A stretch of 37,125 bases of DNA. Source: Lachnospiraceae bacterium. Lineage in GTDB: Bacteria > Bacillota > Clostridia > Lachnospirales > Lachnospiraceae. The translations under genes were made by a program, and so were the position numbers. Shown here one piece after another: positions 3,880 to 19,032 of the stretch; the stretch's first letter is position 1; each line of letters begins with the position of its first letter. The notes beneath the pieces are model-generated. The model did not search any database and had not been told where the DNA came from. It saw only the letters and a list, made by a program, of their open reading frames with translations. Location: positions 1 through 37,125 of the forward strand of contig SVFJ01000024.1 of the NCBI GenBank assembly GCA_015056925.1, given 5' to 3'.

Positions 3880-6390
3880 TTAGTCAATTGCGTATGCAAG
3901 TGTAGATGATTTGGAGCCACAATTACTGATAGCCCATGTTCTCGCATCAGAAGCATTTCTTGTAGCATAGCCATAGTTGTTGGATGGTCTCCAGCTAAGG
4001 GTTCCCAGGCTTCCGATAGAAGAAGCACTGTAGTCTCCTGTACTCAGGAACTGACTGTTATTACCGGAACCATTGATTACTGCTCCGGCATAGGTACCTG
4101 CATCAAAGTAATTCTTTTCTGAGTAAATCTTACAATTTGTATATGGTGTATATCCTAAGTTGAAATCATATACAAAGTTATTGTAGCAATGGAAATATCC
4201 GTAACGCATTAATCCGGGTGCACGGGTAACGGTTGAACGGAAATAATTGTTTGCAATTGTCATACATGGATAACCATCGTAAGTACTTGCACCATCCTCG
4301 CCTGGATAGCCTAAAATAAGGCCATATTTGTGTCCACCAAAGTAGCAGCCATTAACAGTAACAAAAGTAGCATTTAAACCAACATAAAGGAATTTATCGG
4401 TGTCATTTGCGTGAATAGATGTATCAGTAGTCATATCATGACCTGTCCATGTGCAGTGGTCCATCCAGAAGTTTGTACCGTCTGAGATATACATCTGGAT
4501 ATCATCATTTGCGTTGATTGCTACATCATGGCTGAATGTAATGTTTTTATAAATATTATTTCCTGAAGATGAAATATTACGGAAATGAATATTATTTAAT
4601 GTGTGGTTGCTGTATGAACCGATAAAGGTTTTATTCTTTCCAACAGTTACCTTTGTTAATGAGCTTGCGCTGATATTTCCACCAATAATAATGGTATATG
4701 GTGTAGAGCCTGAGGCGTAGGTTTGAAGCTCAGATACTGTATCAACAGTAACAACATCACCTAATACACCACCAATTACGGAAGCTTTTTCATTCCCACT
4801 CATGTCCTTGCAGTAGCCGGCAAAGCCTTCTGCACCGTAAGAATTGAAGCGGAAGCACTGCGAAGCAGAACCTGTATAGGTTGAAAGGATATAACTGCTT
4901 CCTGAAAGAGTTAATGCAAGATTGGTATTTGCATAGTTAACGATTTTATAGTTTAAACCATGTGACCATGAGTCAGTCTTTACAGAAACAATCTTCCAGT
5001 ACTGAGCATTGGTACTTGAGCTTCCTGTTGTAACAACAGATGTACCACTGGATGCACTGTTTCCGCTTGGAGCTAAGACGTATCCTGTAGCCATGTTTAC
5101 AATTCTGTAATAGTCACTTCCTACCTTCTGGATTACCCAATTGTTATAATCAGAAGAAGTAGAATTTGTTGTTACAGTGCTATTTAAGCTGCCTGCAGTT
5201 ACTTTATATCCGTCTGAACAGTTTACGAAATTCATTTCCTGTACAGGATAGTTACTTGCAATACCTGCTGTTGAAGAGGATGTACTACCAGAACTACTAG
5301 AACCTGAAGAACTGCTTGCAGATTCGAATATAAACTGCTGGCATGCGAGTCCGTTATAAGACCATGTACCGATATTGCCACCATTAGCGGTAGACCAGCC
5401 GTATACATCTACTGCCTGTGAACCGCCTGCGTGTTTAGGTAATAAGCAGTAAGCACCGGAAGTAGAGCTTTGTACGACTTGGAAAATCTGATTGCTTCCG
5501 CCACTGGCAGTATATACGTCGATGTTGGCACCATCCGATGTGCTCTTTCCACAAACATCCATCATTCTACCGCTGGATAAACCACTCATTAGGGTAATGT
5601 AATTATTTCCCTGATTCGTTACATACCATTTCTGAGCATAACAGCCGTTATAGGCCCACTGCTGTACATTTGTACAGTTTGCATCGGTTCCGTTAGTAAC
5701 GTCGATGTATAAGCCGCTATGTACATTCTTGATATAATACCAGCCGTCACTGATATAGTTTGAGCTTGAAGAACTCGAACTAGAAGAGCTGGAACTTGAA
5801 GAACTAGAGCTACTCGAAGAGCTTGGCCATGGTGCCTGTTCAAAGTACCAAATCTGATTGTCGCTACCCTTTTTGGTGTACTCTAATACATTGGCACCTG
5901 ATGCTGTAGAAGCACTAGCTACATCCAGGCAGGATGCGAAATTAGATACTTGTGTGGTGATGTAATAACCACCATTGCTGTCTGCCGCTGTAATAGCAAA
6001 GTTCTGTGCGGTAGCACTGTTGTTCTCCCATATCTGGATATTGGTACCGTTTGTAGAAGAACCATTTGCTACGTCCAAAGAAATGCCGCCTGTCATATCG
6101 GTGGCTGGGTGAAGTCTGTAATAGCCAGTAGAGCTATTCTGCTCCAGTATCCAACGTTGTCCAAGGGAACCTGTTCCAGTTGCCTGAACAACATTTGCAC
6201 CGGAGGATGAGGAATCATTCTCCACCTGCAGATATAATCCGCTGTTTTTGTTTTTAATGTAATAAATGTTACCACTTTCCGGCGTGGTTGCCGCTGCTTT
6301 CGCTGTCATTACCGGAGTAATGGCAAACGATGTGAGTGTGAGCGCCATGCATGTGAGGTAGCATAGCATTTTCTTGAGCGATTTTCTCAC
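3880..6390 (-). CDS. Secreted pectate lyase (PL1) with three lectin-like modules and poly-Ser linker
   Basis: This 836-residue protein starts with a signal peptide (MRKSLKK, hydrophobic stretch, cleavage near TAKA). Two RICIN/CBM13 beta-trefoil domains follow (about 35-187 and 212-357), shown by repeated QxW motifs such as QRW, QIW and QKW. They are joined by a run of about 20 serines. A third, more divergent trefoil-like region spans about 376-525. The C-terminal 300 residues are a family 1 polysaccharide lyase: WMDHCTW is the metal-site motif, and RAPGLMRYGYFHCYNN holds the expected catalytic Arg. It should cleave extracellular polygalacturonate by beta-elimination. The start is GTG, supported by AGGAGG eight bases upstream. 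No sortase or S-layer anchor is visible, so it is probably free or bound through its lectin modules. It stands alone between unrelated clusters. Confidence 0.9.
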   Translation of the reverse strand: MRKSLKKMLCYLTCMALTLTSFAITPVMTAKAAATTPESGNIYYIKNKNSGLYLQVENDSSSSGANVVQATGTGSLGQRWILEQNSSTGYYRLHPATDMTGGISLDVANGSSTNGTNIQIWENNSATAQNFAITAADSNGGYYITTQVSNFASCLDVASASTASGANVLEYTKKGSDNQIWYFEQAPWPSSSSSSSSSSSSSSSSSSSSSNYISDGWYYIKNVHSGLYIDVTNGTDANCTNVQQWAYNGCYAQKWYVTNQGNNYITLMSGLSSGRMMDVCGKSTSDGANIDVYTASGGSNQIFQVVQSSTSGAYCLLPKHAGGSQAVDVYGWSTANGGNIGTWSYNGLACQQFIFESASSSSGSSSSGSTSSSTAGIASNYPVQEMNFVNCSDGYKVTAGSLNSTVTTNSTSSDYNNWVIQKVGSDYYRIVNMATGYVLAPSGNSASSGTSVVTTGSSSTNAQYWKIVSVKTDSWSHGLNYKIVNYANTNLALTLSGSSYILSTYTGSASQCFRFNSYGAEGFAGYCKDMSGNEKASVIGGVLGDVVTVDTVSELQTYASGSTPYTIIIGGNISASSLTKVTVGKNKTFIGSYSNHTLNNIHFRNISSSGNNIYKNITFSHDVAINANDDIQMYISDGTNFWMDHCTWTGHDMTTDTSIHANDTDKFLYVGLNATFVTVNGCYFGGHKYGLILGYPGEDGASTYDGYPCMTIANNYFRSTVTRAPGLMRYGYFHCYNNFVYDFNLGYTPYTNCKIYSEKNYFDAGTYAGAVINGSGNNSQFLSTGDYSASSIGSLGTLSWRPSNNYGYATRNASDARTWAISNCGSKSSTLAYAID

Positions 6391-6659: not shown

Positions 6660-6688
6660 TTGGCATTTTGGTAGTTATGATATATAAT
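6660..6688 (+). promoter_or_regulatory. Strong predicted promoter of lasso B2 gene
   Basis: TTGGCA (6660-6665), a 17-base spacer and a perfect TATAAT (6683-6688) lie about 48 bases before the B2 start codon. Confidence 0.75.
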
Positions 6689-6735
6689 GTGCAGAGGTTG
6701 AGAGCGTAAATGTTGTAATATATGTGAGGAAATAT

Positions 6736-7167
6736 ATGTTTAGAAAGGTTTATAATTTTATTACGAAAAACCATGATAAGAAAGAAACGATTTGGTCATA
6801 TATTTATTCGGGAATGTTTCGTATGCAGTTATTGCTGATAAAGCCTAAATATCTGCAAAAGTACTGGGGAGAAGAAGGAAAGGAATCTGTTGATAAAGAG
6901 GAGATAGAAACATATCGCTATGCAGTGAAGGTATCAAGAATTGTGAATCGTATATGTTCTAAGACTTCATGGGAAAGTAAATGTCTTGTCAGGGCTTTAA
7001 CAGCACAAAAGCTCTTGAAGAGTAAAAAGATACATACTACACTGTATCTCGGATGTAAGATGGAAGAAGGTAAGATGGTAGCCCACGCATGGCTTCGCTG
7101 TGGTGAATTATTTGTTACAGGCGGAAATGGAGAAGGTTATGCAGTGGTAGATAAGTTTTATATATAG
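6736..7167 (+). CDS. Lasso peptide B2 protein (transglutaminase-like leader peptidase)
   Basis: This 143-residue protein matches the Transglut_core3 leader peptidase family of lasso clusters. The candidate catalytic Cys is C83 in SKCLVRALTAQ, and the His is H117 in AHAWL, followed by the VTGG stretch. It should cut the leader from the precursor once the B1 protein presents it. Proteobacterial relatives have an Asp about 12 residues after the His; here that place is Gly, so the third catalytic residue must come from elsewhere. The ATG at 6736 is preferred over the in-frame GTG at 6724 because GAGGA lies just before it. It is its own transcription unit: a strong promoter precedes it and a terminator follows, although B1 and the exporter lie downstream in the same direction. 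Confidence 0.87.
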   Translation: MFRKVYNFITKNHDKKETIWSYIYSGMFRMQLLLIKPKYLQKYWGEEGKESVDKEEIETYRYAVKVSRIVNRICSKTSWESKCLVRALTAQKLLKSKKIHTTLYLGCKMEEGKMVAHAWLRCGELFVTGGNGEGYAVVDKFYI

Positions 7168-7175
7168 GTCAGTTT

Positions 7176-7208
7176 ATCCTCGAAATTCTTTGTTTCGAGG
7201 ATTTTTTG
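7176..7208 (+). terminator. Rho-independent terminator after B2
   Basis: ATCCTCGAAA (7176-7185) pairs with TTTCGAGGAT (7193-7202) and is followed by a run of T. It separates B2 from the B1-exporter unit. Confidence 0.85.
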
Positions 7209-7223
7209 TGTCAAGATGAACTA

Positions 7224-7252
7224 TTGCATTATTTGAAATGCTATAGTAATAT
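7224..7252 (+). promoter_or_regulatory. Predicted promoter of the B1-exporter unit
   Basis: TTGCAT (7224-7229), a 17-base spacer and TAATAT (7247-7252) lie just after the B2 terminator and about 54 bases before the B1 start. Confidence 0.6.
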
Positions 7253-7305
7253 GTAATATTATGGGATAGCCATATAGAGGTAGTTGTTGTGAAGAGGATG
7301 GAAAA

Positions 7306-7569
7306 ATGGAGAGAGACGAATTAATTAAAATTAGTAAGAAATTAAATGTTACAGACCTTGCTGGTGAGAAAGTAATGATTGACTTTGAGTCAGGCAAGTA
7401 TTTTATGATTAAAGGTGTGGGGAACGACATTTGGGATATGCTACAGAGTGAGATAACACCAGAGCAGATTATTGAGAAGCTTTTAACAGAATATGACGTT
7501 AGTAAGGAAGAATGCGAGAAAGCTGTCATGGACTTCTTAGGTAAGATGAGAGAGTTACAGTTTATTTAG
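7306..7569 (+). CDS. Lasso peptide B1 protein (PqqD-like RiPP recognition element)
   Basis: This 87-residue protein is a PqqD-family winged-helix domain: an N-terminal strand region with FESGKYFMIKGVGNDIWDML, then helices with EQIIEKLLTEYDVSKEECEKAVMDFL. Such domains bind the leader of the precursor, forming a strand alongside it, and pass it to the B2 peptidase and the cyclase. The likely leader contacts are the shared Trp4, Pro7 and Leu12 of the two precursors at 11348-11470 and 11605-11748. AGAGGA precedes the ATG. The exporter gene follows after 19 bases, so the two should be co-transcribed. It is the only B1 copy, so it must serve both precursors. Confidence 0.88.
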   Translation: MERDELIKISKKLNVTDLAGEKVMIDFESGKYFMIKGVGNDIWDMLQSEITPEQIIEKLLTEYDVSKEECEKAVMDFLGKMRELQFI

Positions 7570-7588
7570 TTAGAAGGTAAAGAAATCA

Positions 7589-9265
7589 ATGAATAAGATT
7601 AAGAAATTATGGCTGGACAGAAGGAATCAATATGCCTATTTTAGATGGTTGATAAGCTATGCAAAGCCTTATTTGGGTCGTATTTCTTTAATGATGCTAA
7701 TCAGTTTGTTGAATACTGTTTTATCATTAGCTATGGTGCATATTTCAAAGGGCATTATAGACCGTGCAACAGCAGGAAGCAGTTTTCTTATGTTGGTTGC
7801 TTTGTACTTAGGGCTTACATTAATGGCGCAGGGAATTTCAGTTTTTTCAACTTTATTTTCCACCATGCTTAATGAAAAATTTTCGTTTGGTATTCGTAAG
7901 CAGTTGTATGAGAAGATTATTAATTCTCATTGGATAGATGTAAAGCGTTATCATACAGGTGATTTGATGACACGACTTACCAGTGACGCTACTAGTATTG
8001 CAGATGGTATAGTAACGGTTATTCCGAATATTATCCTTTTAGCAATAGAGTTGGTACTGGTATTTTTTACGTTATTTTACTATTCACCGATTTTAGCAGT
8101 ATTTGCATTGCTTGTGGCTCCTGTATCTGCATTATCTTCTTTTTGGCTTGGGAAGAAGCTCAAAAGGTTACAGATTAAGGTTCAGGAATCAGAGTCAAGA
8201 TATCGTTCCTTTATGCAGGAAAGCCTTGCTAATATTTTGGTCGTTAAGTCGTTTGCAAACGAAGAATATTCGGCAAACAGATTGACACAATTAAGAGACG
8301 AAAGATTTCATTGGGTATATAAGAAGACGAAGATGGGACAGATAAGTTCTACGTGTATGTCCCTTTCTTTTCAGGTAGGTTATATTGTAGCATTTGCATA
8401 TGGTGCATTACAGATTTCACGTAGTGTGATTACATATGGTACGATGACGGTCTTTTTAAATCTGGTGAATCGTGTGCAGGCACCCGTATTGATGCTGGCA
8501 CAGCAGATTCCGAAGGTGGTATCGGTACTGGCATCGGCAGGACGAATTATTGAGATTCAGAATATTCCGTTAGAGGAGAAGTTGCCAAAGCATATTGAAG
8601 CAACAGAAGTTGGCTTGAAGATGGAGAAGGTTTCTTTTGGCTATATGGAGAATGAAACTGTTCTGGAAGATGTTTCGTTAGAAGTGAAGCCAGGAGAGTT
8701 TGTAGCGATTATTGGTGAGTCGGGTATTGGTAAGACTACTTTGATTCGTTTGATTATGTCATTTATGAGCAATATACGTGGTACTATTAGCTTTTGTAAT
8801 AACAAAGGTGAGATAGAGAAAGCAAACGCTGGATCGAGAGAATATATTGCATATGTTCCGCAAGGGAATACCTTGTTTAGTGGTACGATAAGAGAGAATC
8901 TTCGCATGGGAAAGCTTGATGCTACAGAAGAGGAATATGTGGAAGCCTTGAAGCTGGCATCAGCATATGACTTTGTAATGGAGCTTCCTAATGGAATAGA
9001 TACGGTAATTGGTGAACGTGGTCATGGAATTTCAGAAGGACAGGCACAGAGACTTGCAATTGCAAGAGCATTCATCAGAAAAGCACCGTTCCTGATATTG
9101 GATGAAGCAACCTCTGCTTTGGATGAACAGACAGAGCTTAGGGTAATTCAAGGCTTACAGCAGTTAGAGCCTAAACCAACCTGTTTGATTATTACTCATC
9201 GTAAGAGTATTTTAAGCTGTTGCGATAGAGAGATTAAGATTGAAGATGGAAGAGTAAGTTTATAG
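7589..9265 (+). CDS. Lasso peptide ABC exporter (D protein)
   Basis: This 558-residue half-transporter has an ABC exporter membrane domain (residues about 20-320, six predicted helices) fused to a nucleotide-binding domain. Walker A is GESGIGKTT, the signature is ISEGQAQR rather than LSGGQ, Walker B is FLILDEATSALD, and the H-loop His is in ITHR. ISEGQ-type signatures are frequent in peptide exporters. There is no N-terminal C39 peptidase domain, as expected because leader removal belongs to B1/B2. It should act as a homodimer in the cytoplasmic membrane, exporting the mature lasso peptides and giving some self-protection. It follows B1 by 19 bases and ends at a bidirectional terminator shared with the converging cyclase gene. 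Confidence 0.88.
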   Translation: MNKIKKLWLDRRNQYAYFRWLISYAKPYLGRISLMMLISLLNTVLSLAMVHISKGIIDRATAGSSFLMLVALYLGLTLMAQGISVFSTLFSTMLNEKFSFGIRKQLYEKIINSHWIDVKRYHTGDLMTRLTSDATSIADGIVTVIPNIILLAIELVLVFFTLFYYSPILAVFALLVAPVSALSSFWLGKKLKRLQIKVQESESRYRSFMQESLANILVVKSFANEEYSANRLTQLRDERFHWVYKKTKMGQISSTCMSLSFQVGYIVAFAYGALQISRSVITYGTMTVFLNLVNRVQAPVLMLAQQIPKVVSVLASAGRIIEIQNIPLEEKLPKHIEATEVGLKMEKVSFGYMENETVLEDVSLEVKPGEFVAIIGESGIGKTTLIRLIMSFMSNIRGTISFCNNKGEIEKANAGSREYIAYVPQGNTLFSGTIRENLRMGKLDATEEEYVEALKLASAYDFVMELPNGIDTVIGERGHGISEGQAQRLAIARAFIRKAPFLILDEATSALDEQTELRVIQGLQQLEPKPTCLIITHRKSILSCCDREIKIEDGRVSL

Positions 9266-9274
9266 GTAAATAAG

Positions 9275-9306
9275 AACGCCGACTCGTTATGAGTCGGCGT
9301 TTTGTT
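9275..9306. terminator. Bidirectional terminator between exporter and cyclase
   Basis: AACGCCGACTC (9275-9285) pairs perfectly with GAGTCGGCGTT (9291-9301) around GTTAT, followed by TTGTT on the plus strand and TTCTTATTT on the minus strand. Confidence 0.87.
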
Positions 9307-9327
9307 ATGAATAGATACTTTTGTTTG

Positions 9328-11259
9328 TTAGAGTTCATCTATATACTCTTCTACAATTTCTTTCGTTTTATCAAGAACATTCTGTGCCATCGCGCAGATG
9401 TATAGACAGATAAAGATATTCTCATCTAATTCTTGAGTGGCGGATGTAGAATCTTGGTGGTTCAGCCATTCGTCTATTACATTAAAATCAAGATATTGTT
9501 TCCAATACTCACGATTAAGTTTCTTTACAATTTCTGTCTTCATTGGAACATAAATATCATTCCAATCGGAATCCTTCTTCGCACTATTTCTGCCAAAGTC
9601 ACATTTATAACATTGAGTGTAGAGTGAAGGTGGCATAATATCCTTAAAGGCTTCCCTGAAAATGTGTCGATGGGAGTTGCCTTTTAAGTATAGATAGCGC
9701 GGAATAGAAACTGCAAAATCAATAACCCGATAGTCAAGGTACGGAATAACATATCTAACACCGGAGTAAGCACCTTGTAATGAAATATTGTCTAATCTGT
9801 TGCGACTTCCTCCATTGAGAATGTGCATTTTAGGATCGTAAGCAAAGGAAACCGCATTCATATCTTTTTCGTTATATCGCTTAGCAAACTCTTTGTTTAA
9901 AAGATTTGTAGCTGCTATAGGTGAATGAAAAGGTTTTGTGATTTTTTGGTGAGTTTGTGTTAGGTTATGATAACAGTTTTTTAAAGTACGCAGTATTCGA
10001 TATTTAGAACCTGCTGAGGCTAACCACATCTGTCTAAAATAATGATAATATTCATGGTAATAGAATAGTTCATATGGATTGCAACGGTGACTGACCCCCT
10101 CATCTCCGCCATGGCCTGTAAATACAATCTTGGCACCGCTACGATTAACAAATTGGGAAGTGTGGGAAATTGTTAAGGTATTGACATAAGCAGGTAATAT
10201 ATATCGATAAACATCTATTTCGTTATAGTCGATATTGATATTAAGCTCCTGCATGGTTTTGTCGAGATTACTATCTGCATCTAATTCTTGCTTGATATTG
10301 GTATAATTGCAAGTTATATTTTCTTGTTTGCATATATCTTCAATGACCAAGCGTTCATCGTGCTCCACTAGGGGATATAATGCAGGATTAGGGGACCATG
10401 AGAAAAAAGTGCATTCATGACCTAGTCGATTAATTAAAATATCAATTACACCTGAGTCTAGACCACCAGATAGTTCAGCGCCGATATGGCAGGCGGTCGC
10501 ATCAATTCTTCTTTTAATTGAGTCAGTAATAAGCTGATTCAAGTGGGATTGGTACTTTGCTTCTGAAGAAAAACGTATTTTTTGTTTTCCAAGTTGCCAA
10601 TAGGTATGTTTTTCTAATGTAAGTTTATGATCTTTACAGTACAAGTTTATATATCCGCCCGGTTTAACACAAAAGACATTGGAATATTCAGTCTTTTCGG
10701 GACTAATATTGGAATATCCGGATACTGTTTTAAAAATCCAATCAGCATCTATTTTAATGTCTGATTGAAGGAGTGAGGTGATACCGCGGATATCTGTGGA
10801 AAATACAACAAATTCGTTATCAGCATAATAAAATAATGGTCTAATCCCCATATGGTCGCGAAAAATGGTCAAGGTGTTGTCTGTCTCGTTGTATATGGCA
10901 CCACAGAAGTCGCCGTTTATATTTTTTACGCTATCTATTCCATAATTTTCTATACAGTATAGGAGTAATTCCTCGTCAGAAAAAGTTTGTGATAGTTGAT
11001 ATTCATTCAATAACTCATCTCTATTGTATATGAGTGCATCTATAACTGCATATTTGAATGATGTATGAAGAATAAGATTGGCTGGTGCAGGACTTCTTGA
11101 TATGTCCTCATAGCAACAGCCTAACATAAAGTTTCTTTTTTTATATATGTCGCATCCATCTCTGCCGTAAGCCTGATTCCATAATTTCAAGGAAGATGTA
11201 TTTATTATTTGTTTCTTTGTGTTAGAATTTAACTGTAAATATCCAAAAATTCCACTCAT
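9328..11259 (-). CDS. Lasso peptide cyclase (asparagine-synthetase-like), copy 2
   Basis: This 643-residue protein has an N-terminal class II glutaminase-like domain and a C-terminal asparagine synthetase domain with the ATP-binding SGGLDS loop (about 264-269). It begins MSGIFGY: the Cys2 nucleophile of true glutamine-dependent asparagine synthetases is replaced by Ser, as in lasso cyclases. It should adenylate a Glu or Asp side chain of the core and close the isopeptide bond to the new N-terminal amine. The ATG at 11259 is chosen because the family starts at this point; an in-frame GTG 15 bases upstream is less likely. It lies just downstream of precursor A1, past that gene's terminator, so its expression depends on read-through or an unseen promoter. 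Confidence 0.86.
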   Translation of the reverse strand: MSGIFGYLQLNSNTKKQIINTSSLKLWNQAYGRDGCDIYKKRNFMLGCCYEDISRSPAPANLILHTSFKYAVIDALIYNRDELLNEYQLSQTFSDEELLLYCIENYGIDSVKNINGDFCGAIYNETDNTLTIFRDHMGIRPLFYYADNEFVVFSTDIRGITSLLQSDIKIDADWIFKTVSGYSNISPEKTEYSNVFCVKPGGYINLYCKDHKLTLEKHTYWQLGKQKIRFSSEAKYQSHLNQLITDSIKRRIDATACHIGAELSGGLDSGVIDILINRLGHECTFFSWSPNPALYPLVEHDERLVIEDICKQENITCNYTNIKQELDADSNLDKTMQELNINIDYNEIDVYRYILPAYVNTLTISHTSQFVNRSGAKIVFTGHGGDEGVSHRCNPYELFYYHEYYHYFRQMWLASAGSKYRILRTLKNCYHNLTQTHQKITKPFHSPIAATNLLNKEFAKRYNEKDMNAVSFAYDPKMHILNGGSRNRLDNISLQGAYSGVRYVIPYLDYRVIDFAVSIPRYLYLKGNSHRHIFREAFKDIMPPSLYTQCYKCDFGRNSAKKDSDWNDIYVPMKTEIVKKLNREYWKQYLDFNVIDEWLNHQDSTSATQELDENIFICLYICAMAQNVLDKTKEIVEEYIDEL

Positions 11260-11293
11260 CACATAAGGCCTCACTTATATATAGCATTGCGTG

Positions 11294-11330
11294 AAAAAAG
11301 GTCCTTATCAAATGTAGACTGACAAGGACC
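11294..11330 (-). terminator. Terminator after precursor A1, before cyclase 2
   Basis: Read on the minus strand, GGTCCTTGTCA (11330-11320) pairs with TGATAAGGACC (11310-11300), with one wobble, followed by six T. Placed between precursor and cyclase, it would keep precursor mRNA in excess. Confidence 0.82.
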
Positions 11331-11347
11331 CTTATTTAATGTTCTAA

Positions 11348-11470
11348 TTATGATATATCATTTGTACCATCTTTAAATAAAACGAAAGATTCAAACTCGA
11401 CGTCAATCCAACCATTTTCAGTCTCGTTAATATTCAATTCCTCAATCGCAGGTGTTGTCCACTGTTTCAT
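11348..11470 (-). CDS. Lasso precursor peptide A1 (40 aa)
   Basis: This 40-residue ORF begins at an ATG seven bases after GGGAGG. Its first 17 residues, MKQWTTPAIEELNINET, match precursor A2 at 14 of 17 positions, while the rest differs, which is the leader/core pattern of a ribosomal peptide. Trp4-x-x-Pro7 and Leu12 are candidate B1-binding residues, like YxxP...L in other Firmicute lasso leaders. The Thr typical of the leader end is T17. If the core starts at Gly20, Glu27 is core residue 8 and could close an eight-residue ring; starting at Asn19 makes Glu25 residue 7 or Glu27 residue 9. The tail holds FVLFKDGT and ends in Asp-Ile-Ser, so the last residue is a possible kinase target. The core is strongly acidic. 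It is followed by its own terminator and then cyclase 2. Confidence 0.85.
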   Translation of the reverse strand: MKQWTTPAIEELNINETENGWIDVEFESFVLFKDGTNDIS

Positions 11471-11505
11471 TATAAATACCTCCCTTAAATAAAACTTGCT
11501 CTTAC

Positions 11506-11534
11506 ACCTTAGCTTGTTTCTCGGGAAAGGTCAA
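11506..11534 (-). promoter_or_regulatory. Weak predicted promoter of precursor A1
   Basis: On the minus strand TTGACC (11534-11529), a 17-base spacer and TAAGGT (11511-11506). The -35 is good and the -10 matches only half the consensus; it lies after the A2 terminator. Confidence 0.35.
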
Positions 11535-11567
11535 TAATTCTAACAAGAATGATAGAATTAATGTAAC

Positions 11568-11588
11568 AAAAAAGGAGCTTGCGCTCCT
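11568..11588 (-). terminator. Terminator after precursor A2
   Basis: On the minus strand AGGAGC-GCAA-GCTCCT (11588-11573) is followed by a T run ending near 11568. It ends the A2 message about 100 bases before the A1 start. Confidence 0.85.
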
Positions 11589-11604
11589 ATTTGTGTAAGC
11601 CTGC

Positions 11605-11748
11605 TTAGCTAATTGAATCTTCACCGAACCATCCAGAAATCTCGCCATCTCCAAGATAACCGCCGTCCCACTTTGGCTCGATATGCCAATTGTGAGCAGT
11701 CTCATTGATATTCAGTTCTTCAATTACAGGTGTTTCCCACTTTTTCAT
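11605..11748 (-). CDS. Lasso precursor peptide A2 (47 aa)
   Basis: This 47-residue ORF has the leader MKKWETPVIEELNINET, nearly identical to that of A1, followed by a quite different core of about 28 residues rich in Gly, Trp and acidic residues (NWHIEPKWDGG and onward). If the core starts at Asn20, Asp28 is core residue 9 and would give a nine-residue macrolactam; starting at Trp21 gives eight. Starting at His19, with Thr17 in the usual second-to-last leader place, leaves no acid at positions 7-9. It ends Glu-Asp-Ser-Ile-Ser, sharing a C-terminal Ser with A1. A strong promoter lies about 40 bases upstream and a terminator just downstream, so it is an independent unit. The gene lies between cyclase 1 and precursor A1. 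Confidence 0.85.
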   Translation of the reverse strand: MKKWETPVIEELNINETAHNWHIEPKWDGGYLGDGEISGWFGEDSIS

Positions 11749-11784
11749 ACACATTTCCCTCTCTCTCAACTCTTTTACTCGTAC

Positions 11785-11813
11785 AGTATAGAATGAAATA
11801 GAGATTATGTAAA
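11785..11813 (-). promoter_or_regulatory. Strong predicted promoter of precursor A2
   Basis: On the minus strand TTTACA (11813-11808), a 17-base spacer and TATACT (11790-11785) lie about 37 bases before the A2 start codon, within the gap after cyclase 1. Confidence 0.75.
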
Positions 11814-11897
11814 CAAATCTAACATAATTGATAGAAATAAAGGCTCAATTCAATTATTATAGTAATAATAAATAGTTTTTGTGGCATATTAAACCTG

Positions 11898-13823
11898 TTA
11901 TTGGTTATTATTAATAAAGAAAGAGAGTATATAAGCAGTGCTTAAGTATACTTGTGTATTGATATCCAATGCTTTAAAGGAAAAATTCTCGCTATTAACA
12001 AAAGATAATATCTGTTCTATATCCAGATAGGTAAGCATGGCGGGGGTGTCTATGGTATCTATATAGGATTTACTAAGCATATTCCAATCACGAGTAATGC
12101 GGATTGCCCAGTCATCGTTCTGAATACCGTGTCTGTCCCAGTTTTCTAGGATATAGGATGGAAGCATATCTTTCATGTTTTCTCGAATCAGCCATTTGGT
12201 AGTTCCTTGATATGCAAAGTATTCATATGGCATATGATAGCAGAAGCTTAAAATACGAATATCCTTTGTAGGGTCACGTAAAACAATACCATGCTTCAGG
12301 CCAATCTTTGTTTCCCATTCCCCCATGTAGGTGCAGCCCATCAGCTGGATTAGCTGTTGGCGGTATTGCGCCTGAGTGTTTGGGAGGCCAGAGAAGGCAT
12401 ACATATTTCCTTGGTCAAAGCGTTCTTTAAGAGGATATACTTTTTTAAAGGATTCGCTTAGAAAAGGATGAAGGAGTTCGTAATTCTGTTCATGCGTGGT
12501 TACTTTATGCTGCTTACGTATCTTATGCAGGTACATAAGATAAGAAGGTATAAATTTCTTCTTTGGAATGCTCATATGCTCTGCAAAGTGTGTTAAGCAT
12601 TTGAAAAGAGAATGAAATTTTCTATTACAATATAAGTCATAAAATATAGGGTCGATGTTACCATAGGATATCGTAGAATTACCGAATTGTCCTGAGAGAA
12701 CGACTCGGCAATCTGCCTTTGTGGCTTTATCATAAATTTCGTTTAAGTTAGGATAATTAACAAAGGCTTTATACGGAATTTCCAGAGTTTGTAGCCCATC
12801 AGGTATGCTCTCCATTGCATTTTTTCCTTCGTTGCATAGGAAGTGTGGAAGGATATTGGGATGCATTGCAACAATTGCTTTGACATCTTGGGTTTCATCA
12901 TATATTTTATGTCTGTTATTTTCGGCAACTTTTTCATATGGAACGTAAGTGTATGCGTATAGGCTTTTGGATTGGGTAGCTAATAAGTCAGCAGCAATCG
13001 TCCCCACAGAAGAAGAGTCAAGCCCACTGCTTAGAGCAATACCGACCTCCTGATTGGTATGAATCGCATCTGATACACAGTTTGTTAACAGCTTACGAAA
13101 ATAAGTACCATATTCTTCAGCAGTTTTGCACGTACAATCCTTAAGAGTTTCCGCAGGAGTCCAATAGGAGCGTTGTGTAATCTGTTGCTGGGTAATGGTA
13201 AGTATGGTTGCCTGTGGCAGCTTATATACCCCTTTGTAAGGTGTTTCGGGAACAACAACAGTGGGGATTAATGATGGTGCCGCAAGGTAATCCATACAAT
13301 ACATTTCATTAAGAGTAATCTCAGGATGAAGCTCCAGAATAGGAGTAATTAAGGTCGAAAAGGAGACCTGGTCCTTGCACGGGTAGTAATATAGGCAACG
13401 TGCGGAGACCTGGTCATTGGCAAGATATAAGGTTTTTGTATTTTCTTCCCAGACTGCAAGCGTAAAAAGTCCACGGAAATGCTTTACACAGTCAATTCCC
13501 CATTTTAAGTATGCAATATATACGAGACGTCCATCAGGTATGTTAACATCATGAATGGATAGAGCATCCATTAATTCCAATCGGTTATCTAAAATACAGT
13601 CAGTGGTAAGAATTAGATTTCGCTCATAATCAATGATAGGTAGCTGTTCGTTTACAGCCTCATTTGTAATATATTGAATGCCACAGCCCATATAGCAATT
13701 ATAGAACTGCCTTGATTGGTAGCTATCGATTTTGCATTGCTTTTGGTAAGGTGCTTGCATGATAGTACCTACATTGCTATTAAGATTATTGTTATAAGAA
13801 AGAGTTCCCCATATAGCAGACAT
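11898..13823 (-). CDS. Lasso peptide cyclase (asparagine-synthetase-like), copy 1
   Basis: This 641-residue protein is a second, clearly different asparagine-synthetase-like cyclase. It starts MSAIWGT, again lacking Cys2, so it cannot use glutamine in the normal way. The synthetase domain has SSGLDS (about 265-270) as its pyrophosphate-binding loop. Beyond motifs it differs widely from cyclase 2, so the pair is not a recent duplication. Start choice: ATG at 13823 has GGGGAGGA seven bases before it; the longer frame to 13865 would cross the promoter. It is first on the minus strand, directly upstream of precursor A2, which makes A2 its natural partner. No clear terminator follows it before the A2 promoter. 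Confidence 0.86.
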   Translation of the reverse strand: MSAIWGTLSYNNNLNSNVGTIMQAPYQKQCKIDSYQSRQFYNCYMGCGIQYITNEAVNEQLPIIDYERNLILTTDCILDNRLELMDALSIHDVNIPDGRLVYIAYLKWGIDCVKHFRGLFTLAVWEENTKTLYLANDQVSARCLYYYPCKDQVSFSTLITPILELHPEITLNEMYCMDYLAAPSLIPTVVVPETPYKGVYKLPQATILTITQQQITQRSYWTPAETLKDCTCKTAEEYGTYFRKLLTNCVSDAIHTNQEVGIALSSGLDSSSVGTIAADLLATQSKSLYAYTYVPYEKVAENNRHKIYDETQDVKAIVAMHPNILPHFLCNEGKNAMESIPDGLQTLEIPYKAFVNYPNLNEIYDKATKADCRVVLSGQFGNSTISYGNIDPIFYDLYCNRKFHSLFKCLTHFAEHMSIPKKKFIPSYLMYLHKIRKQHKVTTHEQNYELLHPFLSESFKKVYPLKERFDQGNMYAFSGLPNTQAQYRQQLIQLMGCTYMGEWETKIGLKHGIVLRDPTKDIRILSFCYHMPYEYFAYQGTTKWLIRENMKDMLPSYILENWDRHGIQNDDWAIRITRDWNMLSKSYIDTIDTPAMLTYLDIEQILSFVNSENFSFKALDINTQVYLSTAYILSFFINNNQ

Positions 13824-13836
13824 TTTGTTCCTCCCC

Positions 13837-13884
13837 TTGTTTTTTTTCTGTGATGATGATACCATACTAGAAGTATTTGAGCAA
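13837..13884. promoter_or_regulatory. Overlapping divergent promoters for cyclase 1 and kinase
   Basis: Minus strand: TTGCTC (13884-13879), 17 bases, TATCAT (13861-13856), leading to cyclase 1. Plus strand: TTGTTT (13837-13842), 17 bases, TACCAT (13860-13865), leading to the kinase. The two -10 elements share bases, so the promoters should compete or be controlled together. Confidence 0.5.
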
Positions 13885-13911
13885 CAAATGATAAGGCTGG
13901 AGGATTGGAAG

Positions 13912-14817
13912 TTGTACTATTATTTATTATTTGGAATGATTATTGAATCAGATATAGATTTTCCGCAGCTGGTTAAGGCGGAGAAAACAGAGGCTGATAT
14001 TGTGATTAAATCGGGAACGATGCCAAAAGAGTTATATGACTATGAAAAAGAGTGTGGAAGTAGTTTAGGGAATAAAATAAGCTGGTTGATTAACACATAT
14101 TGTTATTTGTATGTAGAAAATGGAAGTGTTATCACATATGAGTTAAAGGAAAAAGGAACCTTAAGTATGGTTCGCAATTACCTCATGGGCTGGGGGATAT
14201 CTATGCTAGGTTTACAAAGAGGAATCAATGCTATGCATTGTTCGGTAGTAGCGTCAGATAAAGGAGCAATCTTAATTTCGGGAGAAAGTGGAAGTGGTAA
14301 GTCGACACTAACCAATATGTTCTTAGATAAGGGCTGGAAGCTTATGGCGGATGATATGGCATATGTTCAGACGAAGGATAGTGGAGATGTTATGGTATAT
14401 CCGGCGTTTCCGCATCAGAAGCTTTGCCGAGATGCGGCACTTAGGAAGGGATATGATTTGGACGAGCTGATTTATCTTGGAGAGGATAAGGACAAGTTCT
14501 TTGTTCCGTATAAGGGTGAATTTGTGTTGCATGAAATGCCGGTTAAGGCGCTTATTATATTAGGACGTCATAAGGGGGATGAAGTGGTAACAGAGGAAGC
14601 GCAAGGATTTAATAAGTTCCTAGGGTGTGTTAATAATTTGTTTTTGAGACATATACTCGGACAGGAAAGATATTCAGGTATTCCGGCAAGAGAAAGCTTT
14701 CGTATGGCTGAAGGTATCAGAGTATTTCGGATAGTGCGTCCGGTAGAGGGAGACACCTTACAAGAAGTAACACAAAAGGCAATGACAATTGTAGAAGATA
14801 TTGTGAAGGATATGTAA
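13912..14817 (+). CDS. HprK-like lasso precursor kinase
   Basis: This protein of about 301 residues belongs to the HPr kinase-like P-loop family found in lasso clusters. It has Walker A GESGSGKST and the downstream acidic pair in MADDMAYV, which in HprK-type enzymes binds Mg and nucleotide. The N-terminal half has the LYYYLLFGMIIESDIDFPQL opening typical of these cluster kinases. In paeninodin-type clusters such a kinase phosphorylates the C-terminal Ser of the precursor; both precursors here end in Ser. TTG at 13912 has GGAGG eight bases upstream and fits the family N-terminus; ATG at 13888 is an alternative with a poor ribosome site. True HPr kinase is unlikely given length and context. It is transcribed away from cyclase 1. 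Confidence 0.83.
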   Translation: MYYYLLFGMIIESDIDFPQLVKAEKTEADIVIKSGTMPKELYDYEKECGSSLGNKISWLINTYCYLYVENGSVITYELKEKGTLSMVRNYLMGWGISMLGLQRGINAMHCSVVASDKGAILISGESGSGKSTLTNMFLDKGWKLMADDMAYVQTKDSGDVMVYPAFPHQKLCRDAALRKGYDLDELIYLGEDKDKFFVPYKGEFVLHEMPVKALIILGRHKGDEVVTEEAQGFNKFLGCVNNLFLRHILGQERYSGIPARESFRMAEGIRVFRIVRPVEGDTLQEVTQKAMTIVEDIVKDM

Positions 14818-14821
14818 TAAA

Positions 14822-14854
14822 AGGCACAGGCTCATGAGAGTCTGTGCTTTATTT
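14822..14854. terminator. Bidirectional terminator between kinase and sensor kinase
   Basis: GCACAGGCTC (14824-14833) pairs with GAGTCTGTGC (14838-14847), one wobble, around ATGA, followed by TTTATTT. The two flanking genes converge here. Confidence 0.82.
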
Positions 14855-15667
14855 AATGCATGGAAGTGTAAATGAAAAACAGCTTCCTTTTCCTTCTTCG
14901 CTTTCACAGAACACATTTCCCTCATGGCGTTCAACGATGGTTTTTACAATGGATAATCCAAGACCGCTTCCGGTATTGGAGTTTGGGGTTCTTGCCGAAG
15001 AAACGGTATAGGTGCGATTGAATATATGAGGAATCGCTTCTTTGGGAATTCCTATTCCATTATCAATAACACTTACAAGAATATAATTCTCAGATGGAAG
15101 CTGTGTAACCTTTAGGGTAATACTGCTTTCAGGAAATGAATATTTGACAGCATTAGTAAATAAATTGTCTAAAACGCGAACAATTCTAGGAATGTCGATG
15201 GCAATCTGTATGGATAAGTCATTGGCAATTTCCAACTTCATGTCATGATTATCATAACGAGTATCTACAATTGCATCGTAGAAGTATTCTTCAAAAAAGA
15301 TTGCTGCATCTACTGTCTGCAGGTTTAGGGATTTTGAGGTATCCTCCACACAAAATAAGTAGTACATATCCTGTATGATTTCTTCTAAAAATCTGGTGCG
15401 TTTATCGATTAGGTTTAAGCAAGAGCGATAATCTTCATCGGATAGTACGTTTCCGGATGTTAAATAATCGGTTGCACTCCGTATCGCTGTAATTGGAGCA
15501 CGTAAATCATGTGAAATATTTGCTAGCATTTCACGCCTTTCCAGTTCCATTCGCTTTAACTCTTTATTGGCTTCCATCAGCTGAGAGGATACCTGTAAGA
15601 GTTTGGCGGAAAGAGATTCGGCAGTTTCGCTTTCTATGGAGGGCTGCTCAAAAGGTATCTTTTTCAT
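14849..15667 (-). CDS. Soluble sensor histidine kinase without sensor domain
   Basis: This 272-residue kinase consists of a short coiled N-terminus (about 15-48), a HisKA domain with phospho-accepting H53 in ISHDLRAP, and a HATPase domain with the N box NLFTNAVKYS, DNGIGIP and GSGLGLSIV. There is no membrane segment and no recognisable sensory domain, so it must read an intracellular cue or a partner protein. It is co-transcribed with the OmpR-type regulator just upstream (20-base gap). It lies next to the lasso kinase gene with convergent orientation. A role in controlling the lasso cluster is possible but rests only on position. Confidence 0.88.
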   Translation of the reverse strand: MKKIPFEQPSIESETAESLSAKLLQVSSQLMEANKELKRMELERREMLANISHDLRAPITAIRSATDYLTSGNVLSDEDYRSCLNLIDKRTRFLEEIIQDMYYLFCVEDTSKSLNLQTVDAAIFFEEYFYDAIVDTRYDNHDMKLEIANDLSIQIAIDIPRIVRVLDNLFTNAVKYSFPESSITLKVTQLPSENYILVSVIDNGIGIPKEAIPHIFNRTYTVSSARTPNSNTGSGLGLSIVKTIVERHEGNVFCESEEGKGSCFSFTLPCIK

Positions 15668-15687: not shown

Positions 15688-16380
15688 TTAACTATTTTTA
15701 ACAATAAATTTATATCCCTTTGACCATACGGTTTCTATCATTTTTTCTAATTCAAAATCAATGTTCATTTTCTTGCGAAGACGGCTGACATTTACCATAA
15801 TGGAACGTCTGTCAGCTTCCTGATAGGAGCCGAACAATGCATTTCCTAATTCCTCAAAGGTAATATCCTGATTAGGATGCGTTGCAAAGTATAGAAGCAC
15901 TTCGTATTCTCGATTGGCAAGAACTATCTCTGTGCCCTTGTAAAAGGCTTTATGCGTAAGCTGGTCAATGGAAAGATTCTGTACTGTCAGTAAATGCGAG
16001 TCTTGAAGAGGTTGAATGCGTTGCATGCGCCTTAATAATACATCGATGCGAACCTTTAATTCACGAAGACTATAGGGCTTTACAATATAATCATCAGCAC
16101 CTAGGGTCAGACCGGTTATTTTATCATCTTCCGCATCCTTTCCTGTAAGAAAGATAATAGGTGCAGACGTGAAGCGACGTAATGATTCGCATACCTGATA
16201 GCCGTCTAAGCCGGGCATCATAATATCTAAAAGAATACAATCAGGATTTGTTTTTTTAGCCTGTTCGATACCTTGCAGGGGGTCTGATTCGATATAGACC
16301 TGAAATCCTTCGCCACATAAGAATTTGCGATTGATTTCTAATACCTCGGCATCATCATCTATCATAAGTATTGTTGCCAT
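15688..16380 (-). CDS. OmpR-family response regulator
   Basis: This 230-residue regulator has a receiver domain with the acidic pocket IDDD (8-10), phospho-accepting D52 in LLDIMMPG and the conserved Lys in VKPYS. A C-terminal winged-helix Trans_reg_C domain follows (FEELGNALFG, RRSIMVNVSRLRKKM). It binds DNA, usually at direct repeats. The ATG at 16380 is used because AGGAGG lies eight bases before it; the in-frame GTG at 16389 would overlap that site. It is the first gene of the unit with the soluble kinase. A perfect 14-base palindrome lies at the promoter and may be its own or another regulator's site. Confidence 0.92.
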   Translation of the reverse strand: MATILMIDDDAEVLEINRKFLCGEGFQVYIESDPLQGIEQAKKTNPDCILLDIMMPGLDGYQVCESLRRFTSAPIIFLTGKDAEDDKITGLTLGADDYIVKPYSLRELKVRIDVLLRRMQRIQPLQDSHLLTVQNLSIDQLTHKAFYKGTEIVLANREYEVLLYFATHPNQDITFEELGNALFGSYQEADRRSIMVNVSRLRKKMNIDFELEKMIETVWSKGYKFIVKNS

Positions 16381-16396
16381 GCTGTGCACCTCCTTT

Positions 16397-16571: not shown

Positions 16572-16614
16572 GTAAAGCGACTATGTTTGTGTTACAAATA
16601 AAGTGGTGATGAAG

Positions 16615-17823
16615 ATGTATTCTATGAGACGTTTTATTCAGGCAGAAGGTTTATTAATACTACTGGTAATTCTGGGAATCAGAACTACTTCACAGGTGTT
16701 GTGGAGCTTGATATTAGCTGGTATACTAATGATTTTAATCACGATGAAAAGTCTGGAGGAAGAGATTTCTTCAGGCTTTCTTTTTGTACAATATCTGGTG
16801 TCGATTCTATTTTGTATTGCGACAGCAGATTATTTGTCTTTTCTCGTATTTAGCGCTTTTTATGTGGAAGAAGGAATTAGAGTAAAAAATGCAGGATTTT
16901 TTTTGCCTTCCAGTGTGTATATGTTGACGACTATATGTGCGAAAGTAGTAGGTTTGTGGCATATAGATACACCAAGAATGATTCTGCATATATTACTTCT
17001 TTTCATGGTATCTGCGCTTTTGTGGGGATTGGAGTATTTGGTTAAGAAATATATCACGGCAGAGTGGCAGAATAAGGATGTTCTTCGTGTGGCGGCTGTA
17101 AATGAGCTGGTGGAGCGAAAGCTAAGACAGGAACTGATTGTAAAGAATTATCTTCGAGAGAGGAATGCACGGCTGGAAGAGCGTGAAACCATAAGTAGAA
17201 ATATACATAATAGTGTGGGACATTCTATTACGGCGGCAATTATGACCTTGGATGCAGCAGACATGCTCTATGATACGGCGCCGGATAAGGCAAGAGAGCG
17301 CATGAATACTGCGAATGCAAGAATGAGAGAGGGGCTTGCGGCAGTGCGTCATGCGGTTAGAGTACTGGATGAAGAGAATGTTTATTTAACAGTAGAAGAT
17401 ATGATTCAGAATTTTGCGACTGTAGTTGAGCAGTTTACGATGGATACCATGATTCGAGTTTCGACTGATTGGGAAACAGTCCCAAGAATAATTTCCATAT
17501 CAAGAGAGCATACAGAGTTTTTAACCGGTGCGTTGCAGGAGCTTTTGACAAATGGTGTAAAGCACGGTGCGGCTGATAGATTTGTAGTACGTTTGACTGC
17601 AGATAGCTGTCATGTGCGTCTTTGGGTGTCGGATAACGGTAAGAGTGATTTTGCACAGTGGAATCAAGAGGAAAGAATTGAAAAGGGCTTTGGACTAAAG
17701 AAACTCTATTCCTATGCAGAGCGTTGTGGTGGAAGTGTTGTGATTTCTATTGGAGAGAGGGGGCAAGGATTTGCTGTGGAACTAACCTTGCTGAATGATA
17801 GTGAAGAAAATAAAAGGGAATAA
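16615..17823 (+). CDS. NarL-type (HisKA_3) membrane sensor histidine kinase
   Basis: This protein of about 402 residues has an N-terminal block of about five membrane helices (residues about 10-140) with short loops and no large extracellular domain. A coiled linker and HisKA_3 domain follow, with H188 in ISRNIHNSVGHS. The HATPase domain carries ELLTNGVKHG and DNGK. Such intramembrane-sensing kinases often respond to membrane or cell-wall stress or to antimicrobial peptides. The ATG at 16615 is preferred because GGTGAT ahead matches the extended anti-Shine-Dalgarno; ATG 16609 and GTG 16603 are alternatives. It heads the operon kinase, small membrane protein, regulator. Confidence 0.88.
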   Translation: MYSMRRFIQAEGLLILLVILGIRTTSQVLWSLILAGILMILITMKSLEEEISSGFLFVQYLVSILFCIATADYLSFLVFSAFYVEEGIRVKNAGFFLPSSVYMLTTICAKVVGLWHIDTPRMILHILLLFMVSALLWGLEYLVKKYITAEWQNKDVLRVAAVNELVERKLRQELIVKNYLRERNARLEERETISRNIHNSVGHSITAAIMTLDAADMLYDTAPDKARERMNTANARMREGLAAVRHAVRVLDEENVYLTVEDMIQNFATVVEQFTMDTMIRVSTDWETVPRIISISREHTEFLTGALQELLTNGVKHGAADRFVVRLTADSCHVRLWVSDNGKSDFAQWNQEERIEKGFGLKKLYSYAERCGGSVVISIGERGQGFAVELTLLNDSEENKRE

Positions 17824-17844
17824 CTGTGAGAGGAGAAGATTGAA

Positions 17845-18285
17845 ATGAAGAAGAAGGTATTCATTATTGGGAGTATGGTGATTTTGGTAGTTATTATTTT
17901 GGCTTTGGTAATCGGAGGAATGCAAAGAAAGCCACAGGGTAGTATTCAGGGACCGGAGGATGTTGTACCTTCCTACGAAGTATTGGTGCAGAATCTGACG
18001 GATGAAGGCTATGAAATTCATGAAGAAACAAATGTGTTTGACTGTGATGTAACTGCCAAAAGAGTCATAGCGACAAAAGGGAAAAAATATATTGACATCT
18101 GTTATGAACTGAAAGAAGAGGATGTAGAAGCAGTGTTCAAAAAATACCTGGAAAAATACGAGGATACATCCTTTTATGTATTGGCGCAAAATGGAACTTT
18201 TGTCTATTGCGTCAGTGATAAAAAGACCTTTAAGAAGAGTGGTTTTACAAGTCTTGCAAATTATGGACAACAGATATTGAGATAG
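17845..18285 (+). CDS. Small membrane-anchored extracytoplasmic protein, unknown
   Basis: This 146-residue protein is not recognised. It has one N-terminal membrane segment (about 4-26, hydrophobic Ile/Val/Leu) after three lysines, with no lipobox Cys. About 115 residues follow that should lie outside the cell, rich in Lys, Glu and Tyr, with three cysteines. It sits between the NarL-type kinase (21-base gap) and its regulator (11-base gap), with AGGAG before the ATG, so all three should be co-translated. Position suggests an accessory of the sensor, for example a ligand-binding or inhibitory partner, but nothing in the sequence proves this. Confidence 0.75.
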   Translation: MKKKVFIIGSMVILVVIILALVIGGMQRKPQGSIQGPEDVVPSYEVLVQNLTDEGYEIHEETNVFDCDVTAKRVIATKGKKYIDICYELKEEDVEAVFKKYLEKYEDTSFYVLAQNGTFVYCVSDKKTFKKSGFTSLANYGQQILR

Positions 18286-18296
18286 AGGAAGAGAGT

Positions 18297-18926: not shown

Positions 18927-18929
18927 AGC

Positions 18930-18964
18930 ATGACCGTAGTCATAAAAAATATGACTGCGGTTAC
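18930..18964 (+). promoter_or_regulatory. Tandem candidate regulator sites that also form a terminator-like hairpin
   Basis: ATGAC-CGTA-GTCAT (18930-18943) repeats the site before the kinase gene. A degenerate copy, ATGAC-TGCG-GTTAC (18951-18964), starts exactly 21 bases later, two helix turns. The same bases also fold as ACCGTAGTCATA/TATGACTGCGGT (18933-18961), followed by TACTTTTA, so a weak terminator is the alternative reading. Confidence 0.5.
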
Positions 18965-19032
18965 TTTTATGTTACCTTCTTTTGTGGTTAGATAAGTATG
19001 TGCACAAGAGATAATAAAGAGGAGGAAAATTA

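Follow-up and report, generated by a model that had tools for sequence, protein, structure and literature searches.

The window analysed here, a stretch of 37,125 nucleotides from a Lachnospiraceae bacterium (assembly GCA_015056925.1, contig SVFJ01000024.1; labelled C64 in our analysis, with its own assembly, 3.5 Mb and 96.6% complete, labelled G000), holds a putative lasso peptide cluster in which two precursor genes, A1 and A2, and two asparagine-synthetase-like cyclase genes, C1 and C2, lie beside one set of leader-processing genes, B1 and B2. A sequence-only reading had credited the cluster with single B2, B1, exporter and HprK-like kinase genes alongside two precursors and two divergent cyclases, and this content was borne out by open reading frames (ORFs) and profile matches. 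The predicted genes of the cluster, including two probable regulators, are as follows.

6724-7167, plus strand: B2 leader peptidase, transglutaminase-like (NF033537 73.5 bits, cut-off 33; PF13471); sole B2 match in the assembly
7306-7569, plus strand: B1 leader-binding chaperone, PqqD-like RiPP (ribosomally synthesized and post-translationally modified peptide) recognition element, RRE (PF05402 65 bits, cut-off 23.4; NF033536 79 bits, just under its cut-off of 80); sole B1 of its kind in the assembly
7589-9265, plus strand: ATP-binding cassette (ABC) exporter, MsbA-like (PF00664, PF00005)
9328-11259 (ORF from 11274), minus strand: C1 cyclase, asparagine-synthetase-like, with GHGGDE and PYLDYR motifs, Clostridia C1 clade by tree (PF00733, GATase_7; NF033535 179.2 bits)
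11348-11470, minus strand: A2 precursor, 40 amino acids (aa), leader W..P.I..L....T, predicted core GWIDVEFE..., C-terminal Ser
11605-11748, minus strand: A1 precursor, 47 aa, A2-type leader, predicted core NWHIEPKWD..., C-terminal Ser
11898-13823 (ORF from 13865), minus strand: C2 cyclase, asparagine-synthetase-like, with GN.TIS motif, paeninodin-side lineage by tree (PF00733, GATase_7; NF033535 236.1 bits)
13888-14817 (ORF from 13825, likely start 13888), plus strand: HprK-like peptide kinase (PF07475 25.8 bits and TIGR04352 40.6 bits, both below cut-off; H, Walker-A K and DD residues)
14849-15667, minus strand: sensor histidine kinase, probable cluster regulator (PF02518, PF00512); relatives adjoin some other C1/C2 clusters
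15688-16389, minus strand: OmpR-type response regulator, probable cluster regulator (PF00072, PF00486); relatives adjoin some other C1/C2 clusters

The minus-strand order C1, A2, A1, C2 given by the sequence-only reading holds by plus-strand coordinate but not as an order of transcription, which is C2-A1-A2-C1. The distribution over three strand blocks, which had been taken as unusual, is shared in kind by several related loci that likewise lie on mixed strands, and strand layout was ruled out as a signal. The histidine kinase and the OmpR-type regulator were counted into the cluster because related regulators adjoin six of nine two-cyclase clusters in other genomes (L080, L081, L083, L088, L091 and L113).

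Applied strictly and with the core left unconstrained, the leader pattern matches just two of the 333 small ORFs of the window, namely A1 and A2, which argues that neither is a chance ORF. The near-identical leaders and different cores ascribed to them were confirmed: 14 of 17 leader residues and 42 of 51 leader bases are identical, while the remainder gives no alignment, positions 18-40 sharing only 3 of 23 residues in an ungapped comparison. Both leaders hold the [YW]xxPx[LVI..] motif used as a lasso criterion, the motif being taken from PMC13381572. Counting from the leader Thr, which both precursors possess, Glu stands ten residues downstream in A2 and Asp eleven residues downstream in A1, and these would be Gly1/Glu8 and Asn1/Asp9 cores, respectively, if the leader is cut after T-x-x.

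Cyclase lineages and acceptor residues

From their likely starts C1 and C2 are 643 and 641 aa in length, with no internal stops and with intact PP-loops, and 136 of their 594 aligned residues are identical. Glutamine-hydrolysing asparagine synthetases have a catalytic Cys at position 2; this residue is absent from both cyclases, C1 starting with MSG and C2 with MSA. Solved structures matched by sequence are asparagine synthetases, beta-lactam synthetase and hydroxyamidotransferase for both, and CarA for C2 only. In a tree of 77 aligned cyclases, built by a quick method with several long outgroup branches and leaving out the characterised actinobacterial and proteobacterial cyclases, C1 falls into one clade of 37 rows with a Shimodaira-Hasegawa-like approximate likelihood ratio test (SH-aLRT) support of 100, outside the group formed by C2 and the paeninodin-type cyclases. 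The 28 C2 rows together with the cyclases of L137 (Priestia) and L138 (Paenibacillus) make up another clade (support 99), in which L131, one of the C2 rows, is placed with the Bacillales cyclases (support 93). By this tree C1 and C2 are old, separate lineages, with C2 grouping with the paeninodin-type cyclases, and a recent duplication of one cyclase is ruled out by the position of the C1 clade.

The lineages also differ in their motifs, with GHGGDE in 37/37 and PYLDYR in 26/37 of the C1 group, and GN.[ST].S in 28/28 and PT.D.R in 19/28 of the C2 group. C2-type motifs are carried by the cyclases of L137 and L138 as well, the former being annotated as a lasso cyclase and adjoining a paeninodin-family peptide. 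Given that the C1 loci (L079-L117) were fetched by a genome scan for F[TS]GHGGDE or SHR[SC]NPYE, which leaves C1-like cyclases lacking these motifs out of reach, the conservation of GHGGDE is partly built in, and its value as a hallmark of C1 is weakened accordingly. Eight phage records match C1, one of them spanning over 80% of it at 21.7% identity. In L081 (8040-11138) and L113 (11226-14324) a C2-type cyclase lies within a protein of 1032 aa; the C-terminal part of the L081 protein matches glycosyltransferase family 2, and the L113 protein is of the same length.

To relate acceptor residue to cyclase lineage, precursors were collected from 60 loci by a scan for the leader only, the core being unconstrained; weak C2 matches (L057, L068), second copies of loci and the plasmid loci L136-L138 were left out. 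The scan gave 73 records, reduced to 64 by a stricter filter and to 61 after removal of three duplicate cores. Nine of the 73 were dropped by pattern or distance, among them a record at L089 that resembles a genuine leader but is 2.4 kb distant from the cyclase. The precursor of L108, which has no nearby M, stands outside the counts, its Glu having been read by eye. Acceptor positions were counted from the leader Thr, which stands at a fixed place, and 'single-cyclase' was judged per locus, some of these genomes having another cyclase elsewhere.

Among the 49 precursors of 39 single-cyclase loci, Glu at +10 from Thr was found in 24 of 27 C1-linked and none of 22 C2-linked precursors, and Asp at +11 in 16 of 22 C2-linked and none of 27 C1-linked precursors. 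Shuffling within cores (5000 times) gave means of 2.3 for Glu and 2.5 for Asp, with maxima of 9 and 8. The same rule was followed at the eight two-cyclase loci (12 precursors) by five of six C1-linked and five of six C2-linked precursors. The exceptions are L101, L107 and L114 (single-cyclase) and L088 12022 (two-cyclase) on the C1 side, and L049, L061, L067, L126 (1/2), L128 (1/4) and L130 (single-cyclase) and L083 5384 (two-cyclase) on the C2 side. Outside the count, the Butyrivibrio fibrisolvens plasmid locus L136 has a C2 cyclase and Asp at +11.

The window fits this rule, as A2 with Glu at +10 adjoins C1 and A1 with Asp at +11 adjoins C2. Relatives give an independent indication of the pairing. 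At L082/L054, the precursor of a C1 relative resembles A2, and both peptides start with TENG and have retained the Glu. On the C2 side, the precursor of L061 resembles the A1 core (DGGY.GDGEISG in common), but its Asp is at +10; no precursor was found in L055, the closest C2 relative. The pairing of A2 with C1 and of A1 with C2 is well supported by sequence, and the acceptor call is strong for the Glu of A2 and moderate for the Asp of A1.

Other precursors were met in the same scan. A single C2 cyclase in L128 (499-1335) has four precursors, three of them similar and Asp-type and one fitting neither signature. A third precursor type occurs in L088 (12022-14417) and L083 (5384-7714): its leader is the common one, its core is rich in Gly, and the two loci have a similar CRC.GGTSPC..HH stretch in it. 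It adjoins a protein of 690 aa (L088) or 681 aa (L083), of which the L088 one matches an HprK-like kinase (just below cut-off) plus a nucleotidyltransferase. In L089 (14349-14588) and L114 (13123-13353) there are precursor-like ORFs with a leader starting MKKAY and cores unlike both types, and a weak kinase-like match lies near each.

Distribution of B1 and B2 among C1 genomes

Gene order was annotated for 39 C1 loci from the genome scan, many of which end at a contig edge. At least nine of them also hold C2 (L080, L081, L082, L083, L088, L091, L093, L113 and L116; L081 and L113 are near-copies), and in seven of these nine (L083 and L116 being the exceptions) the stretch contains exactly one copy each of B1, B2 and the exporter. 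The number of kinases ranges from one to three per two-cyclase locus, L088 having three kinase-like genes and Ser-ended precursors. A genome search for the C-A-A-C layout with a single B1/B2 had been proposed by the sequence-only reading, and the outcome was divided: the gene set recurs, but the exact layout occurs in none of the 39 C1 loci, among which the gene order of the window was not found again. A conserved C-A-A-C layout was rejected, since all nine two-cyclase loci show other gene orders. An assembly chimera is unlikely, given that C1 and C2 recur together in nine of 39 C1 loci. Judged from sequence, the two-cyclase arrangement is a real, recurring variant of lasso biosynthesis.

In the window's own assembly there are one B2 over cut-off and one B1 for three precursors of one leader type and for C1, C2 and a split C2-type gene. 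The latter, a third cyclase on contig C121 (L049:7462-9842), is split over two reading frames and has its own precursor with a leader of the A1/A2 type; no other lasso gene was recognised in the 13 kb around it. We then counted across the 36 genomes with C1 (33 via loci, plus G000, G115 and G096), most of which are drafts of unstated completeness, so that single absences are weak evidence, and of which G635 and G661 are near-copies at the locus. B2 over cut-off was found once in 29 genomes, twice in G115 and not in six; B1 was found once in 29, twice in G652 and not in six, and the same B1 search also gave one B1 in G203. C2 is present in 25 of the 36, including the window's own genome (the C2 matches G096 C2:198019 and G649 C68, being C1 genes, are excluded from this number, and the G652 C2 match is partial). 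Exactly one B1 and one B2 were found in 20 of these 25, and cyclases outnumber B2 in all 22 B2-bearing genomes with both C1 and C2. The remaining five are G636, G647 and G657, which lack B2 (G647 and G657 lacking B1 also), G115 with two B2 and G652 with two B1.

The positions of these genes suggest that sharing is not confined to one locus. In the cultured Butyrivibrio VCB2006 (G653), C1, C2, B2 and B1 lie on four contigs, with C1 close to a contig end, and in the likewise cultured Butyrivibrio MC2021 (G654) and AE3009 (G658) the C1 and precursor module lies far from contig ends, with C2 and the only B2 over cut-off on another contig. For 14 C1 loci the sequence reaches about 10 kb to either side, and nine of them carry no B1 and no B2 within it. 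In five of the nine (L085, L090, L094, L114 and L116) the B2 is 13-24 kb off on the contig that also holds C1, and in four (L096, L105, L107 and L110) it is on a different contig. If C1 is active at these nine loci, it must depend on B1 and B2 genes from elsewhere. Combined with the 20 of 25 genomes that have exactly one B1 and one B2, these positions indicate that the front end is probably common to C1 and C2, sometimes from another contig. The idea of a single leader-processing system feeding two specialised cyclases, put forward in the sequence-only reading, is supported by these counts and by the lineage-specific acceptors.

C1 also occurs on its own. In L100, L102, L108 and L112 no other cyclase accompanies it: the locus has a B1 and B2 of its own, the genome gives no C2 match and the precursors carry Glu, which indicates that a cluster of this kind can have C1 as its only cyclase. 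These loci, whose B1 and B2 are more distant ones, branch off earliest in the C1 clade, first L108 and L112, next L100 together with L102, and the subsequent forks have supports of 87 and 83. A B2 tree, in which 6 of 21 forks are well supported, suggests that the B2s of the two-cyclase clusters lie among the Lachnospiraceae C2-side B2s and that those of L100, L102, L108 and L112 are more distant. C1 modules may have joined C2-side front ends later.

Proposed pathway and its alternatives

We consider it fairly likely that in this lasso cluster one front end serves two cyclase-precursor modules, C1-A2 and C2-A1. The kinase would phosphorylate the C-terminal Ser of A1 and A2; B1 would bind the common leader W..P.I..L....T and pass both precursors to the single B2, which would cut both after T-x-x. 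C1 would then close an 8-residue ring between Gly1 and Glu8 on A2, C2 would close a 9-residue ring between Asn1 and Asp9 on A1, and the single ABC protein would export both products. As for the kinase step, H117, the K in GESGSGKST and DD155 are present, read without alignment to PadeK/ThcoK by the motif from PMC9266682, and PadeK-type kinases are described as modifying linear precursors at their C-terminal Ser while asking little of the remaining sequence (PMC8498205, PMC9266682). C-terminal Ser is found in 23 of 27 C1-linked and 4 of 22 C2-linked precursors of single-cyclase loci, and in all six C1-linked and three of six C2-linked precursors of two-cyclase loci. That A1 ends in Ser though C2-linked, and that the window has a single kinase, would fit one paeninodin-type kinase for both A1 and A2, a correlation only.

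The cut after Thr-x-x, with Thr at -3, would place the acid at core position 8 in A2 and 9 in A1, and a cut one residue earlier at 9 and 10. With Thr at -3, position 1 is Gly in 19 of 27 C1-linked and 16 of 22 C2-linked precursors, and Thr at -3 is likewise assumed for rumen relatives in PMC7533575. Gly at +3 from Thr was withdrawn as proof of position 1, because the peptides beside L137 and L138 have the same Gly. We prefer -3 as it keeps Asp9 throughout the C2-paeninodin lineage. On either cut, the products of the two cyclases are predicted to differ by one ring residue and in Glu versus Asp.

Several observations weigh against this reading. Neither cyclase reaches the NF033535 lasso-cyclase cut-off of 525 bits (C1 179.2, C2 236.1), and it is by their setting that both, though outside NF033535, are placed to work like lasso cyclases. 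The Fisher P values of the acceptor rule (5e-11 and 2e-8) overstate independence, since each signature is a property of one clade and the rule is effectively one contrast in many sequences rather than many independent events. The cores in the C2 subclade that includes A1 are atypical: position 1 is Asn in L059 and Ala in L061, Asp stands at +10 in L061 and the satellite L049 has neither signature, so that the ring of A1 is the weaker prediction. As for the cut, all previously reported lasso precursors had Thr at -2 according to PMC10368454, and the Bacillales peptides beside L137 and L138, with Gly at +3 as here, have Asp at +10, for which a cut at -2 gives Asp9, matching the paeninodin pattern [GA]x7D given in PMC13289728. 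Applied to the window, that cut would yield Glu9 and Asp10, and position 10 falls beyond the usual acceptor range of 7-9 (PMC10368454).

The closeness of the two leaders (14 of 17 residues) would also be expected if each cyclase acted on both precursors, the second being mainly redundant or dosage-related. Lasso cyclases can tolerate core changes, which favours such overlap too, but we regard it as quite unlikely since the cyclases come from separate lineages and each is accompanied by its own acceptor type, including at two-cyclase loci with a different gene order. If only C2 made a lasso and C1 formed a different amide, for instance in a macrolactam without threading or on a side chain, this would agree with the asparagine-synthetase-like GHGGDE motif retained in C1, with its place apart from paeninodin-type cyclases in the tree and with its 179 bits against a cut-off of 525. 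However, C1 is the sole cyclase beside B1 and B2 in four loci, GHGGDE also occurs in the cyclases of the lasso-like clusters L118 and L120 (themselves fetched by a pattern holding the motif), and the acid of C1-linked precursors is at position 8 or 9, within the usual 7-9; this division of labour is therefore unlikely. Finally, one cyclase or precursor could have stopped working after capture of the other module, as the third cyclase on C121, split over two frames unless by sequencing error, might suggest. With C1 and C2 of the window full-length, free of internal stops and intact in their PP-loops, decay of this sort is very improbable.

The proposed shared front end with two modules can be compared with known systems. 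The Bacillales paeninodin-type clusters (A, C, K, B1, B2, D) are like the window in the B1/B2 split, the HprK-like kinase, the C-terminal Ser and the [YW]xxPx leader; in the tree the L137 (Priestia) and L138 (Paenibacillus) cyclases fall together with C2, and in the peptides of both Gly stands three residues after the leader Thr. L137 and L138 differ in that one cyclase is seen and Asp is at +10, as against two cyclases from two lineages in the window and acceptors at +10 (Glu) and +11 (Asp). Rumen Butyrivibrio/Lachnospira clusters in PMC7533575 have Thr at -3, Gly1, a predicted Asp8-9 and an HPr kinase and histidine kinase nearby; that paper predicts 35 precursors, with Asp at 8-9 as acceptor. 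The C2-type precursors of L132 and L129 appear in its Table 3 under MC2021 and NC3005, but for MC2021 and VCD2006 Table 3 gives Asp-type precursors only, the C1 plus Glu modules L105 and L103 being absent there, and Table 1 scores lasC as present or absent only, so that a second cyclase would leave no trace in it. LPP clusters located next to paeninodin clusters (PMC13381572) likewise combine two RiPP pathways with the same leader motif in one genome; there the pathways are kept apart by their RREs, while here, on the opposite pattern, one B1 and B2 seem to be shared. Table 8 of PMC4289311 lists two asparagine-synthase tags for Desulfotomaculum acetoxidans DSM 771. Among the matches listed in the open-licence literature, no description of two lasso cyclases sharing one B1/B2 was found by title or start of abstract.

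How lasso cyclases choose ring size and Glu or Asp is an open question in the field, and a 2026 review (PMC13352647) states that there is no crystal structure of a lasso cyclase. With nearly the same leader and the same B1/B2 in one cell, differences in ring choice would be assignable to cyclase and core whatever the cut, making the cluster a natural experiment on how ring-closing enzymes choose the closure site. Mining in PMC13289728 required Gx7D, a rule that we suggest passes over the Glu class, and pairs of cyclase and precursor that lack B genes should, we suggest, be kept rather than dismissed as incomplete. In a wider picture, which to us is evenly poised between true and false when all its parts are taken together, lasso biosynthesis in Lachnospiraceae would be modular genome-wide: one B1/B2, in cis or in trans, would serve plug-in modules of two ancient lineages (Gly1-Glu8 and Gly1-Asp9), with C1 as a so far unrecognised lasso cyclase class whose own B1/B2 were lost when it joined paeninodin-side clusters.

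Local signals and neighbouring genes

The following candidate signals lie around the precursors and cyclases.

9275-9301, minus strand: terminator-like hairpin after C1 (an inverted repeat, hence also after the exporter), 11-bp stem, fold z -7.7
11297-11333 (coordinates counted on the folded stretch), minus strand: terminator-like hairpin between A2 and C1, minimum free energy -20.3 kcal/mol, z -5.7; absent from the terminator-scan list
11573-11588, minus strand: terminator-like hairpin after A1, 6 pairs, z -3.1
11785-11813, minus strand: promoter-like site before A1, TTTACA-17-TATACT, by promoter scan, in a region without excess of such sites over shuffles

The scan of the region gave counts not clearly over shuffles (19 promoters versus 19.6, and 4 terminators versus 2.7). 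The hairpin between A2 and C1 is stronger than the one after A1, and hairpins after the precursors are as expected if a small precursor were made in excess of its cyclase.

Upstream of the cluster, positions 654-2728 encode a phosphoenolpyruvate (PEP) mutase that carries a fused cytidylyltransferase-like domain and, after it, a nucleotidyltransferase; this set resembles part of a phosphonate pathway. A protein of 836 aa with a pectate lyase and several ricin-type lectin domains (3880-6390) adjoins the lasso cluster. Positions 16603-20187, beyond the cluster's own two-component pair, encode a second such pair, a HisKA_3 sensor with a LuxR-type regulator, and then an FtsX-like permease.

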